Shown here piece by piece: positions 14,841 through 62,383 of a stretch of DNA of 64,000 nucleotides. Position 1 is the first letter of the stretch, and each line of letters begins with the position of its first letter. The DNA comes from Caldicellulosiruptor saccharolyticus DSM 8903. Lineage in GTDB: Bacteria > Bacillota > Thermoanaerobacteria > Caldicellulosiruptorales > Caldicellulosiruptoraceae. The position numbers were made by a program, and so were the translations under genes. The notes beneath the pieces were generated by a model that did no database searches, was not told the origin of the DNA, and was given only the letters and a program-made list of their open reading frames with translations. Location of the stretch: contig NC_009437.1 of assembly GCF_000016545.1 (NCBI RefSeq), positions 1 through 64,000 on the forward strand. The letters are read 5' to 3'.

Positions 14841-14870
14841 GTTTCAATCCCCAAAGGGGAGGCTACAAAT
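14841..14870 (-). CRISPR. Lone CRISPR repeat
   Basis: This 30-base unit is identical to the repeats at 41808 and 41873 except for its last base (T for C). No second repeat lies next to it. The bases after it match the leader-like flank of the other short arrays, so this is a leader-proximal relic of an array that has lost all its spacers. The strand is given by the ATTGAAAC end of the repeat. Confidence 0.8.
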
Positions 14871-41742: not shown

Positions 41743-41902
41743 GTTTCAATCCCCAAAGGGCAGGCTACAAACATGAGTCACCTGACTTTCCCAGGTTGCA
41801 AATAGCTGTTTCAATCCCCAAAGGGGAGGCTACAAACTTAAAGTTAGATGAAGAGACAGCAAGAGCTTTCCTGTTTCAATCCCCAAAGGGGAGGCTACAA
41901 AC
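41743..41902 (-). CRISPR. CRISPR mini-array with 3 repeats and 2 spacers
   Basis: Repeats are at 41743-41772, 41808-41837 and 41873-41902; both spacers are 35 bases. The first repeat differs by one base (GGGCAGG), as expected at the leader-distal end. On the minus strand the repeat ends in GATTGAAAC, the type I-B-like orientation, so the leader lies at higher coordinates. The last two repeats match the lone repeat at 14841. Confidence 0.95.
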
Positions 41903-45920: not shown

Positions 45921-46319
45921 TTGAACAAGCTGTTTTTGATTTTTAATCATACTCTTACAGAAGATCAGGAAAAAGAAGCAAAAGAATTGTTAAAAGTAAC
46001 CCAGATTATTCCTCTTCCTCAGCACCTGCAGAAGTTATGGAGTAATATTCCACCTGATAAAGATTTGAGCAGCGATTTATTTTTTCCAATTACATCTTAT
46101 TTGCTTGCAAACAAGGGTGAAGATAAAAATTATTGTCTCATTCAAGGTGATTTTGGTGCAATGGTGTATCTTGTCAGCTGGTGTTTCAAACACGACTTTA
46201 TTCCAATTTATGCAACAACCAAAAGAGTGGCTCAAGAAGTTATAAAGCCAGACGGTTCTGTTGAACTTATAAAGGTTTTCAAGCATGAGAGATTCAGAAG
46301 ATATATCCTTTGCATATAA
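45921..46319 (+). CDS. csx20: Csx20-like CRISPR ancillary protein (putative ring nuclease)
   Basis: The 132-residue protein starts with TTG at 45921, 8 bases after AGGGAG. Its pattern fits the Csx20 family: an early PLPQHLQKLWSNIPP, then LIQGDFGAMVYLV, IPIYATTKRVAQE and a closing HERFRRYIL. Csx20 is predicted to cleave cyclic oligoadenylate and so switch off type III CRISPR signalling. That role comes from family knowledge, not from this sequence. It heads a three-gene group with two CARF-HEPN genes (gaps of 45 and 79 bases). Confidence 0.75.
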   Translation: MNKLFLIFNHTLTEDQEKEAKELLKVTQIIPLPQHLQKLWSNIPPDKDLSSDLFFPITSYLLANKGEDKNYCLIQGDFGAMVYLVSWCFKHDFIPIYATTKRVAQEVIKPDGSVELIKVFKHERFRRYILCI

Positions 46320-46364
46320 AAGCTTTTTTCAAATAAATTTTTTGAGGAAGAGAGGGAACTTTAA

Positions 46365-47786
46365 ATGAAGATTATTTATCAGATTGGACGGCTTGATAAT
46401 CCAGGGTCGGCAAAGAAAGAGTTTTTTATAACCAGATTCAAAGGAGAGATTGTAAACTTTTCAAGAGAATCAGAACTTTCTGCCTTTGTTTTGAGAGATT
46501 TTTTGAACTCTCAAGGGAATGAGGCTAAGACGGTGGTGATTTATCCTATCAGCATTCTTTTAAATGAAAAGATTAAAGATTACGTCGAAGATGAGGATTT
46601 AAAAAAGGAGCTTAAAAACATTTGCGAAAATCCTTCACAATACCTCAAATCTCCTTTTGATATAATAAACAGGCTACCTCTTGAAAGTTTAAGAGATGAT
46701 GCGCTTGTAATTCATTCTCTGGGGACATATCTGAATAACGTAGAACTTGATGGCAGCTATGATGACATAGTCCTTGAAATTTTGTTTGACATGATAGAAA
46801 GGTATATGAAAGAAGATATAGATGAGATTTATCTTGACATTTCAAGCGGGCACAATATATACATATCCGCAATGATCGAGGCATCAAGGCATTTTGCGGT
46901 TTTAACAAAGCTTATGCACTGGATTCACGAAGAAAAGCGCCCCAGTATATACGTTGTATTTTCAGATCCTATTATGGGAAGTAGTGCAAAAACTTTTGAA
47001 ATACACATCCAACCGCAAAGCTATACAGCATTTTTCTCATCACCGATAAGCAAGAAAGAAGCGTGCGACCACAACTTTTCGTTTTTGCGAAACATTTACC
47101 AAGAACCGCAGGACGATACGAAAGGCAACAATAAAGTTTTGCAAAAACAGCAGATACGACAGAAAAGAAAAGCTTTGAAAGAAAAGATAGAAATGTTTAC
47201 TATTTTATTTTCTGCAATCAAAAACAACGTCCCGTTATACCTGTATTACCATACATACCATTCAATAGATGAAATAAAAAATGAGCTTGTAAATCTTATT
47301 AATCATGCTAAGGATCAGCTTATAAAAGACTTTGAAGTTTCGCCAAAACTTAACAAAAAAGCATATCTTGATGCAATTTTTAGCCTTTGTTTTTACATGG
47401 GGATTGTTGAGGTTCTGGAAAGATACAATATAACAATGTTTTGCCAGCAGACAGGTTTTGATTTAGAAAAACTTGGACAGACCTTTGCACAGATTTACAC
47501 AATATTTGGTATTCCAATGAACTATACAATGCTTGGGAATGAGATTTCGAACGACACTGAAAAAATACAACAGCATGGTGAAATAGATAAGTGGACAAGG
47601 CTGAGAAAAATTGTCGACCCGGTAAAATCTATTTCAGATGAGCCTGATGAGAGAAACTTTTTTGCTCATTCAGGGCTTGAAGGCAATGTTACAGAAGTAA
47701 GATATGACGGTGAAAAAGTTTATGTCAGATACATTCAAGTACTTCCACAGAGCACGATAGACTGCTGGCTTAAGAAAAGAGTATGA
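46365..47786 (+). CDS. csx1: CARF-HEPN ribonuclease, Csx1 family
   Basis: The 473-residue protein has a CARF-type N-terminal domain with IYQIGRLDNPGSAKKEF at the start and IYLDISSGHNIYISAMIEASRH near residues 155-177, the ligand-binding strand-loop. A helical C-terminal HEPN domain carries RNFFAH (R430, H435), the Rx4H nuclease motif, intact. Csx1 proteins are RNases switched on by cyclic oligoadenylate from a type III effector. ATG at 46365 follows GAGGAAGAGAGGG. Its own type III complex is not in this window. Confidence 0.88.
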   Translation: MKIIYQIGRLDNPGSAKKEFFITRFKGEIVNFSRESELSAFVLRDFLNSQGNEAKTVVIYPISILLNEKIKDYVEDEDLKKELKNICENPSQYLKSPFDIINRLPLESLRDDALVIHSLGTYLNNVELDGSYDDIVLEILFDMIERYMKEDIDEIYLDISSGHNIYISAMIEASRHFAVLTKLMHWIHEEKRPSIYVVFSDPIMGSSAKTFEIHIQPQSYTAFFSSPISKKEACDHNFSFLRNIYQEPQDDTKGNNKVLQKQQIRQKRKALKEKIEMFTILFSAIKNNVPLYLYYHTYHSIDEIKNELVNLINHAKDQLIKDFEVSPKLNKKAYLDAIFSLCFYMGIVEVLERYNITMFCQQTGFDLEKLGQTFAQIYTIFGIPMNYTMLGNEISNDTEKIQQHGEIDKWTRLRKIVDPVKSISDEPDERNFFAHSGLEGNVTEVRYDGEKVYVRYIQVLPQSTIDCWLKKRV

Positions 47787-47865
47787 CGTAAACAGCAAAA
47801 AACTAAAAAGATTTAAAGAAAATGGCAAATCGTTTTTTAACTTCTATGTAAAAGGGGGTTTTTAA

Positions 47866-49179
47866 GTGACAAAAAATAATATAACAAACGTTCTAATTTC
47901 TGTTATAGGCAAAGGGCGATTGAAAAAAGACCAGACAGTAGGGTACGAACAAACTGAGTATGTTTTCAATCCTGATACAAATAAAAAGTATGTTGCCTCA
48001 AAAACAGCTTTTTTTGGAATTGCACTTTATGAATATTTTAAGGAAGTAGAAAAAATACAAATTGACAAGTTCATTTTAATTGGCACTGACCGGTCAGCAT
48101 GGTCAGAGCTTTACCAGATATTGCCTCATGATGTGCAAAATTCAGAAGATATAACTGCGATGTGCTTAAAAGTGTATGAAGAAGAAAAGAAAGGTATTCA
48201 AGACAGTACACTTTCGGTGTGGCAGAACACTCTGACAAAGTACGTACCGAAGCTGAAATTTTACAAAATAAAGCCGCTTGAGCTTGGCAGAGGTATTGAT
48301 ATACTTTTGCAAGAGCTTGATAAAGATGGTGACTATAACATAATCTTTGACATGACGCATGCATTTAGGAACATTCCTGTTGTTTTTTCATATGGAATAA
48401 TGCTTTTGAAGTATTTGAGAAAAATAAATAGTGTAAGAATATTTTACGGTGCGCATGATATGATAAATTATTTTTCTGACCTTGTGAGTGGACAATCCCC
48501 GGTCATTGAGATTCCTTTAATAGACAAGCTTGTAAGGCTAATAGAATCGATGGCAACATTCCAAAACTCAGGTTATTTTGTACCGTTGCTTGAGCAAATA
48601 GGTTTTGGCGACAGAGAAAAGACTTATTTCAAGCTTGAGATGAACCGCCAGCCACGAAGAGAAATTGAAGAGATAATAAAAGAATTTGAAAACAAACAAG
48701 AAGCGGTTAAACATGCTTTTGAAAAAGAAATAGTTGAAATAATGTACAAAGAGTTTTGTGAGATGAACAGGCAGGAAAAACTTTATCAAAGGATGTACAA
48801 AAGATCAAAGTTTTTCTATGAAAGAAGGCAGTATCTCAAAGCACTTGTTCTTCTTTATGAAGCAATAATTGTTCTTTTTGCAGATGTGTATAATATAAAA
48901 GATAATATGAATTATGATGCACGTGAAAAAGCCAGAGATAAACTATTTTTAGAAATAAAAAATATTAAAAACAAAAAGTCAGATTTAAATAAATTAATCA
49001 AGGAACAGGATGAAGCAGATACAGTAAAAGAACTGGAATATGTAAGGAATGCTGCAGTGCACGGTTCATCACCGCGCGGCAATCAGGAATACCTTGAAAA
49101 TGTAGAGAAATTCAAAATATTATTAAATTCGGCCATAAATTTGTTTGAAAAGATGTTAAAAAGAAGAAGCGAGAGTTAA
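47866..49179 (+). CDS. csx2: CARF-HEPN protein, Csx2/TM1812 family
   Basis: The 437-residue protein starts with GTG at 47866 after AAAGGGGG. The CARF part has VLISVIGKGRLKKDQ and, near residues 163-175, IIFDMTHAFRNIP, the DxTHG-type motif of the TM1812 family, here with Ala for Gly. The HEPN motif RNAAVH (R394, H399) lies in the C-terminal helical domain and is intact. It should be a second cyclic-oligoadenylate-activated RNase beside Csx1. A strong terminator follows. Confidence 0.88.
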   Translation: MTKNNITNVLISVIGKGRLKKDQTVGYEQTEYVFNPDTNKKYVASKTAFFGIALYEYFKEVEKIQIDKFILIGTDRSAWSELYQILPHDVQNSEDITAMCLKVYEEEKKGIQDSTLSVWQNTLTKYVPKLKFYKIKPLELGRGIDILLQELDKDGDYNIIFDMTHAFRNIPVVFSYGIMLLKYLRKINSVRIFYGAHDMINYFSDLVSGQSPVIEIPLIDKLVRLIESMATFQNSGYFVPLLEQIGFGDREKTYFKLEMNRQPRREIEEIIKEFENKQEAVKHAFEKEIVEIMYKEFCEMNRQEKLYQRMYKRSKFFYERRQYLKALVLLYEAIIVLFADVYNIKDNMNYDAREKARDKLFLEIKNIKNKKSDLNKLIKEQDEADTVKELEYVRNAAVHGSSPRGNQEYLENVEKFKILLNSAINLFEKMLKRRSES

Positions 49180-52951: not shown

Positions 52952-53111
52952 GTTTCAGTCCCCAAAGGGGAGGCTACAAACTTAATGGTAGCCGATGGTT
53001 GTGTTCACGGCTGGCAGGTTTCAGTCCCCAAAGGGGAGGCTACAAACATGTATATGAAGTAGGACAAGAATTGGAAAGAGAGTTTCAGTCCCCAAAGGGG
53101 AGGCTACAAAC
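52952..53111 (-). CRISPR. CRISPR mini-array with 3 repeats and 2 spacers
   Basis: Repeats at 52952-52981, 53018-53047 and 53082-53111 all read GTTTCAGTCCCC at the start, where the others have GTTTCAATCCCC. The spacers are 36 and 34 bases and differ from those at 41743. The array is minus-oriented, with the leader-like flank at higher coordinates. Confidence 0.95.
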
Positions 53112-54007: not shown

Positions 54008-54037
54008 GCTTCAATCTCCAAAGGGCAGGCTACAAAG
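54008..54037 (-). CRISPR. Lone degenerate CRISPR repeat
   Basis: GCTTCAATCTCC...GGCTACAAAG differs from the consensus by about four bases. It is followed at once by a relic of the leader of the large array, not by type A sequence. Confidence 0.7.
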
Positions 54038-54431: not shown

Positions 54432-54449
54432 AAACATGAGGTGATTTTT

Positions 54450-55841
54450 ATGAAAAGATTTATAAACCGCAGACAGGAACTTGATTTTTTAGAGAAACAG
54501 TACCGAGAGCAAAATTCATCACTTGTTATTATTTATGGGAGAAGGAGAATTGGCAAGACTGCACTTATTAAAAAATTTATTGAAGATAAGCCAGCTATTT
54601 ATTTTTTGGCTTCTGAGGAGGCAGAGAGTCAAAACATAGAGTATTATAAAAAAGCTGTAGGCAATTTTTTAAAAAATCCTTTGATTGAAAGGTTATCTGG
54701 CGTAGGTTGGGATGATATTTTTGATGTTATAATAAACGCAAAAATTAATAAAAAAACGGTGATAGTATTTGATGAATTTCAAAACTTGTGCAAAACAAAC
54801 CCAGCCTTTGCTTCGATTGTTCAAAGAATCTGGGATGAGAAACTAAAAAACCACAATTTTATGCTTATTTTGAGTGGTTCTTTGGTTGGCATGATGCAAG
54901 AACATGCTCTTTCTTATTCAAGTCCTTTGTACGGTAGAAGAACAGGACAAATAAAGCTGAAGCAGTTTTCATTCAAAGAAGCAAAAGAGTTTTTCCCTGA
55001 AGCATCAGATGACCAATTTATATGGATATATTCCATCGTTGGCGGTGTTCCAAAATATTTAGAGATGTTCAAGTTTGAAGGCGATATTTACAAGGCAATT
55101 GAAGAAAATATTCTAAGCAGACAGAGCTTTTTATATGAAGAGCCTTTGTTTTTGCTTGAAAAAGAAGTTCATGAGGTAGGAAGCTATTTTTCGATAATTA
55201 AAAGCATTGCTCTTGGGAACCATAAACTCAGCCAGATTGCCCAGAGCCTTTCTACAGCGCAAACAAAACTTACAAAGTATTTAAATACTTTGATAGACCT
55301 TGATATTGTAAGAAGAGAGGTTCCAGTAACAGAAGAGTATCCAGAAAAGAGCAAAAGAGGGTTATATTTTATAAACGATAATTTCATAGATTTTTGGTTT
55401 AAGTTTGTATATCCATACAGAGAACAATTAGAACTTGACAATACTGAATATGTAATTGAAAATATCAAGTCAAAAATTGTGACAAATCACATAAGTTTTA
55501 TTTATGAAGAAGTTTGCAGGCAGATTTTGATGGATTTAATAAAAACAAAAGAGATTGATATTCAGTTAGACAGAATAGGCAAGTGGTGGGATTCAAAGTC
55601 AGAGATTGATATAGTAGGAATTAGTAAAAACACAGGCCATGTTGTTTTTGGTGAATGCAAATATTCGCAAAGAGTAGTTGATATTGATGTATTTTTTAAC
55701 TTAAAGAAAAAAGCAGAAAATATAAAAGTATTTCCTGAGCAAAAAGAACTTTATATTCTCTTTAGCAGAACAGGATTTTCAGAAAGGCTTTTGGAGTTTG
55801 CGAAAGAGACAGAGAATTTGATACTGATAAAGTTTCCATAG
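54450..55841 (+). CDS. AAA-type ATPase of the DUF234 (archaeal ATPase-like) family
   Basis: The 463-residue protein starts MKRFINRRQELDFLEKQY, followed by Walker A (IIYGRRRIGKTALI) near residue 31 and Walker B (TVIVFDEFQNL) near 105. A winged-helix-like middle part precedes a C-terminal PD-(D/E)XK-like part (EIDIVGISKNTGHVVFGECKYS) of the DUF234 type. The E-x-D and ECKY motifs suggest a nuclease core. ATG at 54450 follows GAGGTG; the GTG at 54441 is an alternative. Its role is unknown. It precedes a CARF gene by 80 bases. Confidence 0.75.
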   Translation: MKRFINRRQELDFLEKQYREQNSSLVIIYGRRRIGKTALIKKFIEDKPAIYFLASEEAESQNIEYYKKAVGNFLKNPLIERLSGVGWDDIFDVIINAKINKKTVIVFDEFQNLCKTNPAFASIVQRIWDEKLKNHNFMLILSGSLVGMMQEHALSYSSPLYGRRTGQIKLKQFSFKEAKEFFPEASDDQFIWIYSIVGGVPKYLEMFKFEGDIYKAIEENILSRQSFLYEEPLFLLEKEVHEVGSYFSIIKSIALGNHKLSQIAQSLSTAQTKLTKYLNTLIDLDIVRREVPVTEEYPEKSKRGLYFINDNFIDFWFKFVYPYREQLELDNTEYVIENIKSKIVTNHISFIYEEVCRQILMDLIKTKEIDIQLDRIGKWWDSKSEIDIVGISKNTGHVVFGECKYSQRVVDIDVFFNLKKKAENIKVFPEQKELYILFSRTGFSERLLEFAKETENLILIKFP

Positions 55842-55921
55842 ATATAGCTCAGGTAGCAAGAACGTTTATATGGGCAAAAAGGATTGTCAAAACACTAAGA
55901 TAAGGAAAGGAGAATATTTTA

Positions 55922-56617
55922 ATGCCAAAGTATTCTAACATTGTCATGACAGGTGGAATTTCAGTATTTTTCTAAAATGAAAAAAAGAGCAATATTTTTT
56001 GTGAATATTTTAAAGAATTCTCTAAAAATAAAAACTCATACAAGGGACAAGATTTGAACAAAGTTTTGGCAGAGATATGTAAAGAAAAAGGGCTTACAGA
56101 TGAGGAAATAAAAAGATTGGTCAAAGAAAGACCCAACCAAGTAAGTGCAGAATTTTCAATGTTAAATGGTCTAAAAGAAAAAGAATTATTGGATGACAAA
56201 TTTAGTGTTTCGATTATACATTCTGATACTCCAGATGGCATTATGGCTGCGCTGATTAATAAAAAAGTAATAGAACTTATTTTTGAAGGTTCTATAGTTT
56301 TTATGGCAGAGGTAGAAGATGTGGATGTTTCAAATGAAGTGAAGTTGCAAAGGTCCTTAGGGAATTTTATGCAAGTTGTTGCAAAAGAACTGTTAAAGGG
56401 TTCAAAAGAAACAACTTTTTTTGCGCCAATTGGTGGTTACAAGTACATGACTTATCTGGGATATGTTGCAGGTGCTCTTTTTGGTTATCCGTCTGGGTAT
56501 ATGTACGAAAAAGATCAAGAGTTGCTTGTTGTGCCCCCAATTCCTATTGAAATAAATTTTGATTTAATTGCAAAAAACAAAAATTTTATAGCTAACTTGC
56601 TTAAAACTGGGCAATGA
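55922..56617 (+). pseudogene. CARF protein of APE2256/TIGR02619 type, with a nonsense codon
   Basis: ATG at 55922 follows AAGGAAAGGAG and opens a frame that reads MPKYSNIVMTGGISVFF. It meets TAA at 55973-55975, then continues in phase as NEKKSNIFCEYFKEFSKN and on to 56617. The N-terminal strand and TGGIS loop match the ligand-binding first strand of the CARF fold. Late in the protein, APIGGYKYMTYLGYVAGALFG and YMYEKDQELLVVPPIPI match the APE2256 pattern (PTGGYK...LPPLP). The 231 codons would bind cyclic oligoadenylate. The largest open part starts at TTG 56054 (187 residues) and lacks the first strand. Its stop overlaps the next ATG by 4 bases. Confidence 0.75.
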
Positions 56618-57147
56618 GTTATCAAGAACTTAGTAATGCTGAAAAAGAAGTTGTAGACACAATGCCGTATTTCTTCGAAAAAATAGTAGTTGACGGTCAA
56701 GAGATTGTAAGCCCAAATGCTTTTGCACAGTTTATTTTTGAAGATTACATTAATACAACAATAAAAGTAAGTACAGAGGTAAAAGAATTAATAAACAAAA
56801 ATAAACAGTATAAAAATTTTATTCATAATCAGTTGATGGAACTTTTAAAAAAGGTAAAGCTGTATTTCAACAATTACAGAGAGTATCAGGGTTTAAAAGG
56901 AGAACTGCAACACAATGAAAATTGGGGAATAAATAAACCATATATTTACAAAGACCCATCGAGGGGTGGTAAATTTATATTCAGATGCGCCTATGATTTC
57001 GACAATATCAACAGCATCTTATTAATATACAAAATTTGGCTTAATCATGAACAGTATGAAGAAGAATGTGAGAAAATTGTAAAAGGAGAAAAGATAATAG
57101 ATATGGATAAAAATAAATTAGTTGAAATAGATATTGAGGAATGGTGA
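56614..57147 (+). CDS. Unknown 177-residue protein coupled to the CARF gene
   Basis: The ATG overlaps the CARF stop (ATGA, 56614-56617), so the two are translationally coupled. The product begins MSYQELSNAEKEVVDTMPYF, has helical charged middle parts, and near residues 118-150 has SRGGKFIFRCAYDFDNINSILLIYKIW followed by LNHEQYEEECEKI. The beta-hairpin then short-helix pattern loosely recalls the end of RelE/ParE-type toxins, the effector joined to CARF in Cami1, but this is weak. I do not recognise it with confidence. It would be the effector or the partner of the CARF sensor. Confidence 0.7.
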   Translation: MSYQELSNAEKEVVDTMPYFFEKIVVDGQEIVSPNAFAQFIFEDYINTTIKVSTEVKELINKNKQYKNFIHNQLMELLKKVKLYFNNYREYQGLKGELQHNENWGINKPYIYKDPSRGGKFIFRCAYDFDNINSILLIYKIWLNHEQYEEECEKIVKGEKIIDMDKNKLVEIDIEEW

Positions 57148-57252: not shown

Positions 57253-57348
57253 CCACCAATTTCCAAAGGGCAGGATACAAACAATCGGATTATCAAGAAA
57301 AAATTTTAGAAGCAGACGGTTTCAATCCCCAAAGGGAAGACTACAAAC
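57253..57348 (-). CRISPR. CRISPR mini-array with 2 repeats and 1 spacer
   Basis: A degenerate repeat (57253-57282, CCACCAATTTCC...GGATACAAAC) and a near-consensus repeat (57319-57348) flank one 36-base spacer. The leader-distal degenerate copy and the flank at higher coordinates agree with minus-strand orientation. Confidence 0.85.
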
Positions 57349-57600
57349 ACGTCAAAGCTTAATTTTATTATATCTAATTTATACATTCCTGTAAATATTT
57401 TCATACCAAAACATTTGTAAAAAACTCAAATCAGCCAAAAAAAATCAATCGATAAAGACCTATCGAACCCTTCCGTCTATCCAGCTGCTGCCAGAAGTTT
57501 TGTCAAATCCATGTGCTGCAATTCTGAAATCGCATACAAATTAAATCTTAAAATTTTGCCACCGGAGGTCGACAGATATGACTTTTGATCAAAATGGAAA
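57349..57600. promoter_or_regulatory. CRISPR leader-like flank, type A (copy 4)
   Basis: ACGTCAAAGCTTAATTTTAT, then TCCGTCTATCCAGCTGCTGC and GGTCGACAGATATGACTTTT are in the same order as in copies 1-3. It is the closest relative of copy 1. Confidence 0.65.
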
Positions 57601-57861: not shown

Positions 57862-59170
57862 GGGAGTTAAAATAAAATTGTGTCCACTGTATAATTAGTG
57901 TTGAAATAATCACCAAAGGGGGGCTCACGATTATGGAGAAAAATGAAATTTTTGAAACCGCTAAAAATATGGCTATCGAGCAAGTATTAAATATGTATTG
58001 CTCCAAAGATGATCCTACTCGCCCAGCTTTAAAACAGCTTTTGGAAAACTTGCTCGATTGCTTTATGTTATCAGAAAGAACTGTTTACCTTGCTAAAAAC
58101 GAAAACGATAAAGGCAATGGTTTTTACGGCAGAAAACTTGCAACACCTGTTGGCAGCCTTGAAATTTCTGTTCCTCGCACACGCTCTGGTAACTTTCGAC
58201 CTTCCATTCTCCCTGACCGCTACAAAAGGGTTGACAGCTCATACACTGACCTGCTCATGTCTTTAGTCGCCAATGGTTACTCAGAAAGTTCTCTTGTCCA
58301 AACTCTTAAAAGCATGAATCTGCCTTATTCTGAAGACGAAATCGAAAAAATCAAAAACGATCTTAAAAACGAGCTTCAACTTTTCAAACAAAGAGAACTT
58401 CCTGAAAGTGCTTTTGCTCTTATCATTGACGGTTACCATTGCGAAATTAAAGATAACTCAAAAGTTAAACAAGCTACTTGCTATGTCGTGCTTGGCATTG
58501 ATTTAGAAGGCAAAAAAGATATCTTCGGTATCTACACTTTCTTCGGCAAAGAAAACAAAGCCGATTGGATGAGAGTCTTTGACGACTTAATTACAAGAGG
58601 TCTTAAAAAAGTCTTAATAGTTGTAAGCGATGATTTTCCAGGCATTATCGATGCTGTTAGACTCGCTTATCCCCTTGCCGACCATCAACTATGTTTTGTT
58701 CACCTTCAACGCAATGTCAGAAAACATATGGCAAAAGATGATGCTTCCGTTTTCAACAAAGAGCTTGATAAACTAAGAACTTCCTCTGCTGATTTTGACG
58801 AAGCTATTTCAAAGTTCAAACTTCTTTGTGAGCAATACTCCTCAAAATATCCTCGATTCATAAAAGGTATTTGCGAAAAAGCAGAGTTCTATCTTGCACA
58901 TATGAGGTATCCTGAAGATTTAAGAAAGTACATTTATACTACTAATGCTGTAGAAAGCGTAAACAGTATGATTGAAAAGATAAGAATAAACTCCGGTGGT
59001 TATTTTCAATCTGTAGAAGTTTTAGAGATAAACATATATTTACAAAGAGAAAACTTGCGTCGGGGCAAGTGGAAAAACGGAGTACCTATTCTTAAAAAAT
59101 GTAGTTACAATATATTACAGCTCTACAATATACGCTATGAAATGGAAACACAAAATTCTTGACAAGTCTC
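57862..59170 (+). mobile_element. Complete IS256-family (mutator) element
   Basis: The element runs from GGGAGTTAAAATAAAATTG to ...TTGACAAGTCTC, whose reverse (GAGACTTGTCAAGAATTTTG) is an imperfect match of the left end. An 8-base direct repeat, CCTTGTTG, flanks it at 57854-57861 and 59171-59178, as expected for IS256. It disrupts an Rpn-type gene. A decayed copy is at 32890-34206. Confidence 0.9.
57933..59162 (+). CDS. IS256-family (mutator) transposase
   Basis: The 409-residue protein has the mutator layout, with PVGSLEISVPRTRSGNFRPS, then FALIIDGYHCEI (first Asp), VLIVVSDDFPGII (second Asp), DHQLCFVHLQRNV (the C/H motif) and the IYTTNAVESVNSMIEKI Glu segment. Length and motifs are complete, so it should be functional. 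ATG at 57933 follows GGGGGG. Confidence 0.92.
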   Translation: MEKNEIFETAKNMAIEQVLNMYCSKDDPTRPALKQLLENLLDCFMLSERTVYLAKNENDKGNGFYGRKLATPVGSLEISVPRTRSGNFRPSILPDRYKRVDSSYTDLLMSLVANGYSESSLVQTLKSMNLPYSEDEIEKIKNDLKNELQLFKQRELPESAFALIIDGYHCEIKDNSKVKQATCYVVLGIDLEGKKDIFGIYTFFGKENKADWMRVFDDLITRGLKKVLIVVSDDFPGIIDAVRLAYPLADHQLCFVHLQRNVRKHMAKDDASVFNKELDKLRTSSADFDEAISKFKLLCEQYSSKYPRFIKGICEKAEFYLAHMRYPEDLRKYIYTTNAVESVNSMIEKIRINSGGYFQSVEVLEINIYLQRENLRRGKWKNGVPILKKCSYNILQLYNIRYEMETQNS

Positions 59171-60109: not shown

Positions 60110-62054
60110 TTTTTAATCTTCAAAGGGTAGGCTACAAACCAATGGTTTCCACAGAATTCAAGCACTTGTTGATATCAAGTTTCAATTCCCAAAGGGGAGG
60201 CTACAAACTATCAAAGCAAATGCAAATATGGGTGATGAGCAAATTTTCAATCCCCAAAGGGAAGGCTACAAACTTGCTGTGTCAAACCACGTTCTTTTCT
60301 CAATTCTTTGTTTCAATCCCCAAAGGGAAGGCTACAAACAAGGAAGGCTAAAGGACTTACACAAGAAGAGATGGCGTTTCAATCCCCAAAGGGAAGGCTA
60401 CAAACCTGCAAAAGCTTATTCGCTATCGTCTGTGCCATAGCGTTTCAATCCCCAAAGGGAAGGCTACAAACTGTTGCGCTTCGCCTGTAGAGCTCCAGCT
60501 TCGCCTGGTTTCAATCCCCAAAGGGAAGGCTACAAACCCGTTGGGGTTGAAAAAATAAAAAAAAGGGAGGGTTGTTTCAATCCCCAAAGGGAAGGCTACA
60601 AACCAGAAATAATAAGTACACTATAGCGGTTGATATCGGTTTCAATCCCCAAAGGGAAGGCTACAAACAGAGGAAGATGAAAGCAATTTTGGTTGATGAA
60701 AACAGTTTCAATCCCCAAAGGGAAGGCTACAAACCGTTATGATAGCGCTCTCTATAAAAGACAGTTGAAGAGTTTCAATCCCCAAAGGGAAGGCTACAAA
60801 CCGGTAAAAAGGGTGACAAAGAGATATTGCACATGCGGTTTCAATCCCCAAAGGGAAGGCTACAAACAACAGTTCATACAACCACCCTCCATTTTTATTT
60901 TTTGTTTCAATCCCCAAAGGGAAGGCTACAAACTATGGAGTAGGGGCAAGCCCTACTCCTCTACCTCAAGTTTCAATCCCCAAAGGGAAGGCTACAAACC
61001 AGATATAATTTTTAAAATTTCTTCTCGCATTTCATGTTTCAATCCCCAAAGGGAAGGCTACAAACTAACTCTTGTGTAATTTGTATCGCACCCCATCTGT
61101 GTTTCAATCCCCAAAGGGAAGGCTACAAACTGTAACTGCCTCACTTGTCTGTATGCCGTTTTTAGTGTTTCAATCCCCAAAGGGAAGGCTACAAACAAGG
61201 AATACTTGAGCAGCATAGGGCTTGACCCAAGAGTTTCAATCCCCAAAGGGAAGGCTACAAACGCATTGTAGGAAGTGATGCAGGTACTAGCTTGAAGTGT
61301 TTCAATCCCCAAAGGGAAGGCTACAAACTTTGACAGTGCTATCACAGCGTATCCTTCTGCTTGAGTTTCAATCCCCAAAGGGAAGGCTACAAACTCAAAA
61401 TCAACAAGAGCGATATGACGATTACTTGCATGTTTCAATCCCCAAAGGGAAGGCTACAAACTTTCTTAGAAAGCTTTTTTTCCTTTCTGAAATTTTCGTT
61501 TCAATCCCCAAAGGGAAGGCTACAAACTTTGCCTTACCTGTTACTTCAGCTTTTTCTAAAAACTGTTTCAATCCCCAAAGGGAAGGCTACAAACTTATAA
61601 GAATTTCACAATCTAACAATCGCTTCAAGTGTTTCAATCCCCAAAGGGAAGGCTACAAACCAGTCATCTTAAATCATCCTCCTCACTTTGATTTTCGTTT
61701 CAATCCCCAAAGGGAAGGCTACAAACTTTTTTAATCAACTCATCCAAATGATTGTATCCAAGTTTCAATCCCCAAAGGGAAGGCTACAAACCAGTCATCT
61801 TAAATCATCCTCCTCACTTTGATTTTCGTTTCAATCCCCAAAGGGAAGGCTACAAACTTTTTTAATCAACTCATCCAAATGATTGTATCCAAGTTTCAAT
61901 CCCCAAAGGGAAGGCTACAAACTGACGTTGAATTTGATATTTTCTTTAATAAGAAAGAGTTTCAATCCCCAAAGGGAAGGCTACAAACATAGCACTGCCC
62001 AGAGTCCCTGACTCATTGCAAGTTGTTTCAATCCCCAAAGGGAAGGCTACAAAC
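60110..62054 (-). CRISPR. Large CRISPR array: 30 repeats, 29 spacers
   Basis: Repeats of 30 bases begin GTTTCAATCCCC and end GGAAGGCTACAAAC on the plus strand; the period is 65-67 bases, with 34-37-base spacers. The first three repeats (60110, 60179, 60244) are degenerate; from 60310 all appear identical. This marks the left end as leader-distal, so the array is read on the minus strand with its leader at the right. Two spacers occur twice as a tandem block (61661-61922). The spacer at 60934-60969 holds a strong hairpin. Confidence 0.98.
61661..61922. repeat. Tandem duplication of a two-spacer block in the array
   Basis: The pair of spacers at 61661-61696 and 61727-61761 is repeated exactly at 61792-61827 and 61858-61892, each with its repeats, a 131-base unit in direct order. 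Slippage or recombination between CRISPR repeats explains it better than two identical acquisitions. Confidence 0.93.
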
Positions 62055-62383
62055 CCGTAGATGGCTTGAGAAATCTTACAAGGAACAAATGGTTAAGTTT
62101 TCAAGCTGCTGTAGGTTATTTCTATTATACTCCACAAGCTCTTGAAAGTCAACACATACCAGAAATTACCTTTTGCTGTCGATCCCCGGGGGTTTTTGGG
62201 GGGATTACAGGTCGACAGCAATTGGTAAATGCAAAAGTCAAAATACATCACAAATCTCAGAGTACATAATTAAAAATAGCAATTTTTGCACAAGCAAAAA
62301 TAATATAAAATGAAAAAAATGACATATAAAGCTAATTAACTTTGCATAAAATTTGACCTTAATAATTAAATGATGGTATGTAA
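62055..62383. promoter_or_regulatory. Leader of the large array (type B)
   Basis: The sequence at the leader end starts CCGTAGATGGCTTGAG. It has a 10-bp inverted repeat, TTGCTGTCGA (62173-62182) with TCGACAGCAA (62212-62221), around a G/C-rich loop CCCCGGGGGTTTTTGGGGGG. After it the DNA is very AT-rich up to the IS481 element at 62384. The promoter of the pre-crRNA should lie here on the minus strand, but I cannot place it confidently. Confidence 0.65.

Follow-up and report, generated by a model that had tools for sequence, protein, structure and literature searches.

In the window, by which we mean the whole 64,000-nucleotide stretch of the Caldicellulosiruptor saccharolyticus DSM 8903 genome (G000) analyzed here, two forward-strand reading frames follow each other between positions 55922 and 57147. 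The first starts with an ATG at 55922, preceded by a good ribosome-binding site (GGAAAGGAG), and is interrupted after 17 codons by a TAA at codon 18 (55973-55975). Past this stop the frame is open until a TGA at 56615-56617, which overlaps the start of the second frame in an ATGA (56614-56617). The second frame runs from the ATG at 56614 to its end at 57147 and comprises 177 residues. The first-pass annotation had placed the TAA and the overlap at these same positions, and had read the locus as a stand-alone CARF sensor co-produced with a separate effector. The coordinates proved correct, and the locus is described here as one broken gene with the following features:

55862..55897, forward strand: type III-D csm2 fossil, consisting of the C-terminal end of the gene (ending FIWAKRIVKTLR and a stop codon) and located immediately before the CARF start (identity to G001 at 65 of 77 bases, E-value 9e-21)

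55922..56614, forward strand: CARF half of the broken single-chain CARF-RelE gene, codons 1-231 (PADLOC CARF7--CARF_RelE, positions 1-211 of 369, 7.7e-86; 94% identity to the CARF part of the intact 408-aa protein of G006)

55973..55975, forward strand: premature TAA caused by a nonsense substitution (in a DNA alignment with G006 and G001, the intact relative G006 has a sense codon here; tblastn counts one TAA inside)

56608..56617, forward strand: frameshift at the CARF/RelE junction, creating the TGA stop and a fortuitous ATG (one base shorter in the DNA alignment than all three relatives, which read through in one frame)

56614..57147, forward strand: linker and RelE-like effector half, belonging to the same gene and open over 177 residues (PADLOC CARF7--CARF_RelE, positions 217-368 of 369, 2.1e-53; AlphaFold2 model and fold matches)

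Read across the TAA, the first frame matches Pfam Cas_APE2256 (PF09651) at 9.1e-13 as well as the CARF7 families of PADLOC, in agreement with the APE2256-type CARF identity proposed earlier. The sole PADLOC family match of the 177-residue frame is the C-terminal part of the very same profile, PDLC01935 (CARF7--CARF_RelE). Jointly, the two frames span positions 1-368 of 369 with a short gap at the junction, and two neighboring frames that cover one profile end to end are the signature of a split gene. The profile describes one chain, whereas the window copy carries a stop and a frameshift. Pfam and NCBIfam searches gave no useful family name for the 177-residue part, and a PDB sequence search with the RelE half alone returned chance matches only. 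A weak match of this part to Pbs27 (0.0046, below the cut-off) was likewise rejected as chance.

An AlphaFold2 model of the 177-residue part, computed with 14 homologues, reached a mean pLDDT of 91. Its best PDB matches in Foldseek were four Cami1 chains (8phj, 8phb; E-values 0.007-0.025), followed by the toxins YoeB, RelE and HigB, which places a RelE-like (BECR) nuclease domain at the C-terminus. HEPN and PD-(D/E)XK folds, against which a comparison had been suggested, were absent among the listed matches. The modest E-values of the model probably reflect the small size of the RelE domain and a different linker geometry, and the ranking is consistent. The RelE-like core with a loose resemblance to Cami1, suspected from the letters of the sequence, is thus supported by both the profile and the predicted fold. 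A model of a full-length homologue from Pseudothermotoga (pLDDT 85) matches Cami1 along about 410 alignment columns with E-values from 1e-16 to 1e-14, followed by the CARF protein SSO1393 and the ring nuclease Sis0811. At the level of sequence, the family profile matches Cami1 from the CARF part into the beginning of the linker (6e-17).

Traits expected of Cami1-type CARF-RelE effectors are activation by cA4, ribosome-dependent mRNA cleavage and recruitment by the ribosomal stalk. Like the family described here, Cami1 (8PHB, 8PHJ) is a single chain of ~400 aa in which RelE follows CARF, and it ranks first among the fold matches of the RelE half as well as of the intact full-length homologue. 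It differs in that the structural alignments show 12-17% identity, the sequence match ends before the RelE domain, and the window copy is broken. According to the citation of Mogila et al. 2023 in PMC11229360, Cami1 binds cA4 through its CARF dimer and cleaves mRNA on the ribosome with its RelE domain. A second known system is SyCsm6 (sll7062) from Synechocystis, a CARF7-RelE fusion whose gene closes a type III-D operon; this protein additionally breaks down the cyclic oligoadenylate that it binds (PMC9676260). Likened by description and not by sequence, SyCsm6 corresponds to the intact relative in G001 in architecture, operon position and subtype; the window copy differs in having neither the operon nor the frame.

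Same-genus relatives were obtained from a search of 40 related genomes. G006 encodes the full protein in one frame of 408 aa, with 94% (CARF) and 88% (RelE) identity to the window halves, and G001 does so in 401 aa, with 80% (CARF) and 67% (RelE) identity. In a third genome, G002, a single frame holds the RelE half together with most of the CARF half, and 210 bp including the start and the first codons are deleted; as judged from the sequences, G002 broke the same gene independently of the window lineage. A scan of genome contigs added 14 further homologues, each a single open frame, from Geobacillus, Anoxybacillus, Ureibacillus, Bacillus, Caryophanon, Caenibacillus, a Pseudothermotoga bin, Spirochaetes, Myxococcota and others. 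No relatives were found with same-genus query sequences in viral contigs or in the first genome-contig scan. A sample of 399 genomes from the phylum contained 24 with a match; of these matches, the few that are close to this subfamily are single frames except those in G000 and G002. In another genus of the class, a CARF-RelE relative (L012, genome G029) is also frameshifted, seemingly in two places, in a fragmented assembly.

All 16 complete homologues, two from the same genus and 14 from elsewhere, carry both domains in one polypeptide, and because of this the apparent overlap is a frameshift inside one gene. An intact two-gene pair, which the first-pass annotation had suggested looking for in other genomes, was not encountered: the supposed neighbor is always part of the same protein as the CARF domain. 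The idea of a free-standing sensor with a separately made effector is not supported on these grounds. The same applies to a toxin/antitoxin-like pair, since a type II toxin-antitoxin system consists of two co-translated separate proteins conserved as a pair and none of the homologues found is split. We conclude that the window locus is a broken, non-working member of the known CARF-RelE (Cami1-like) effector family.

The surroundings connect the gene to a type III-D system. In G001 the type III-D operon is complete, with cas6, cas10, RAMP genes, a csx10-like cas5 and csm2 (Csm2 III-D by PADLOC, 1.6e-47), and the intact CARF-RelE gene comes last. In the window, 36 bases of csm2 are left in frame with their own stop; the same frame in G001 (L018) ends in FAWTKRIVKTQR and a stop codon, and the 65 identical bases of 77 extend from the csm2 end through the CARF start. 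Neither the remainder of csm2 nor a III-D Cas10 turned up in the genome of the window. The type III-D Cas10 of G001 (L018:13682-15679) has SGED where the GGDD cyclase motif is expected, so that a different Cas10 of G001 may be the source of the signal.

In the window, a gene for an AAA ATPase/DUF234 protein (54441-55841) now lies upstream of the broken gene, and G006 and G002 show the same arrangement. From this shared order it appears that the III-D operon was probably lost before the species of the window, G006 and G002 split, or in a common donor. The fates of the three orphans differ: the gene is intact in G006, has its start deleted in G002, and carries a stop and a frameshift in the window.

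Type III components are still present around the window copy, which lies beside a CRISPR array as well as the csm2 fossil. An HD- and GGDD-containing Csm1 (G000:82903-85329), 19 kb past the window, and intact Csx1 genes are retained in the genome, so loss of the signal is not the obvious cause of the decay. An intact ancillary cassette of Csx20 (ring nuclease), Csx1 (CARF9-HEPN) and a TIGR02221 CARF2-HEPN protein lies between insertion sequences at 45921-49179, and a second Csx1 of the same type as the CARF9-HEPN protein is located at G000:95658-97082. The main CRISPR array (60114-62073) contains a block (61631-61761) of repeats and two spacers whose tandem duplicate at 61762-61892 is 100% identical. 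Small clusters or single copies of the same repeat are found away from the main array at 57257-57350, 41751-41902, 52960-53111, 54016-54037 and 14849-14870. Two degenerate repeat units directly follow the broken gene, and between these and the main array lie an IS256-like transposase gene (57933-59162) and Rpn-type fragments. Beside a gene for an IS21-type transposition helper, a cas3-like gene has apparently been cut short to 146 aa (L021:3597-4863; G000:67597-68863).

In a DNA alignment with G006, G001 and the third relative, both lesions are private to the window. The TAA arises via base substitutions and not via a homopolymer slip, and the frameshift is a lesion of a different kind: the single missing base generates both the TGA and the ATG. 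The housekeeping frames of the window, which we take from their sequences to be dnaA, dnaN, gyrB and gyrA, are uninterrupted at 514, 379, 643 and 809 aa, respectively. A substitution-type stop, two kinds of lesion in one gene and intact housekeeping frames favor real decay over a sequencing artefact, and G002 independently lost part of the same gene. It is therefore unlikely that either lesion, or both, stems from faulty sequencing or assembly and that the living organism carries an ordinary working Cami1-like effector, even though purifying selection over most of the divergence, the retention of all checked key residues and a Csm1 that could supply the signal would fit such a gene. Of the explanations offered before for the TAA, namely decay, error or recoding, decay is the one favored here. 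Recoding was rejected, as the intact relative G006 has a sense codon at this position.

Over the whole divergence from G006, dN/dS is 0.13 for the CARF half and 0.28 for the RelE half. Both halves still look constrained in this comparison, and the decay must therefore be recent. All ten checked invariant or near-invariant family residues are kept in the 177-residue frame (F21, F37, F40, H100, K113, R124, W142, H145, Y148 and E149), and this half could in principle still be translated. However, among the changes private to the window lineage, the ratio of nonsynonymous to synonymous changes is 19:13 in the RelE half versus 3:13 in the CARF half (Fisher p 0.013), and the conserved G of the KGxSNG motif, following K113, is changed. 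Compared with the RelE half of the sister genomes, the private changes give p 0.09. These sequence comparisons are suggestive of relaxed constraint on the RelE half in the window lineage.

A functional split, with coupled translation yielding separate CARF and RelE proteins or recoding yielding a full-length product, is very improbable. The tight ATGA overlap and the fully open RelE half with its key residues speak for it, but the excess of amino-acid over silent changes and the altered KGxSNG glycine do not, nor does the complete lack of split genes among the 16 complete relatives. A product started downstream of the TAA would lose the first CARF strand and the ligand-binding motif, and inspection by eye revealed no slippery sequence at the junction. 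The window is A+T-rich, and across its six frames 697 of 7084 stop codons (9.8%) have an ATGA overlap, so that such an overlap alone is weak evidence for coupling. We give even less credence to a RelE protein that is made separately through the frameshift, free of CARF control, and tolerated or newly used by the cell.

Taken together, the locus very probably encoded a Cami1-like effector in a single chain until its recent decay, and is an orphan of a type III-D operon. In the intact protein, a linker would connect the CARF sensor at the N-terminus with a ribonuclease of RelE fold at the C-terminus. Homology to Cami1 suggests that Cas10 would produce cyclic tetra-adenylate and that the CARF dimer would bind it, upon which the RelE domain would cut mRNA in the ribosomal A-site and translation would halt during infection. 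The gene would formerly have been the last of the operon, whose loss left the csm2 tail upstream; the orphan would then have decayed by acquiring a nonsense codon immediately behind the first ligand-binding strand and a frameshift of one base where the two domains meet. With these two lesions no full-length protein is possible, and most likely no working protein is made from the window copy.

The lead toward a new sensor/effector gene pair is thereby closed as false. We rejected the idea that decay is special to CARF-RelE because CARF9-HEPN genes in the class also have fragmentary copies. The locus is an anecdote and not a general result on the turnover of abortive-type CRISPR effectors; broken copies of CARF-HEPN genes exist in the same genus as well. 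It is a clear case of a cA4-type effector decaying after loss of its own type III-D operon: among four sister species with the gene, one has it intact within the operon; in the other three it is an orphan, still intact in one species and broken in the remaining two, by lesions that differ.
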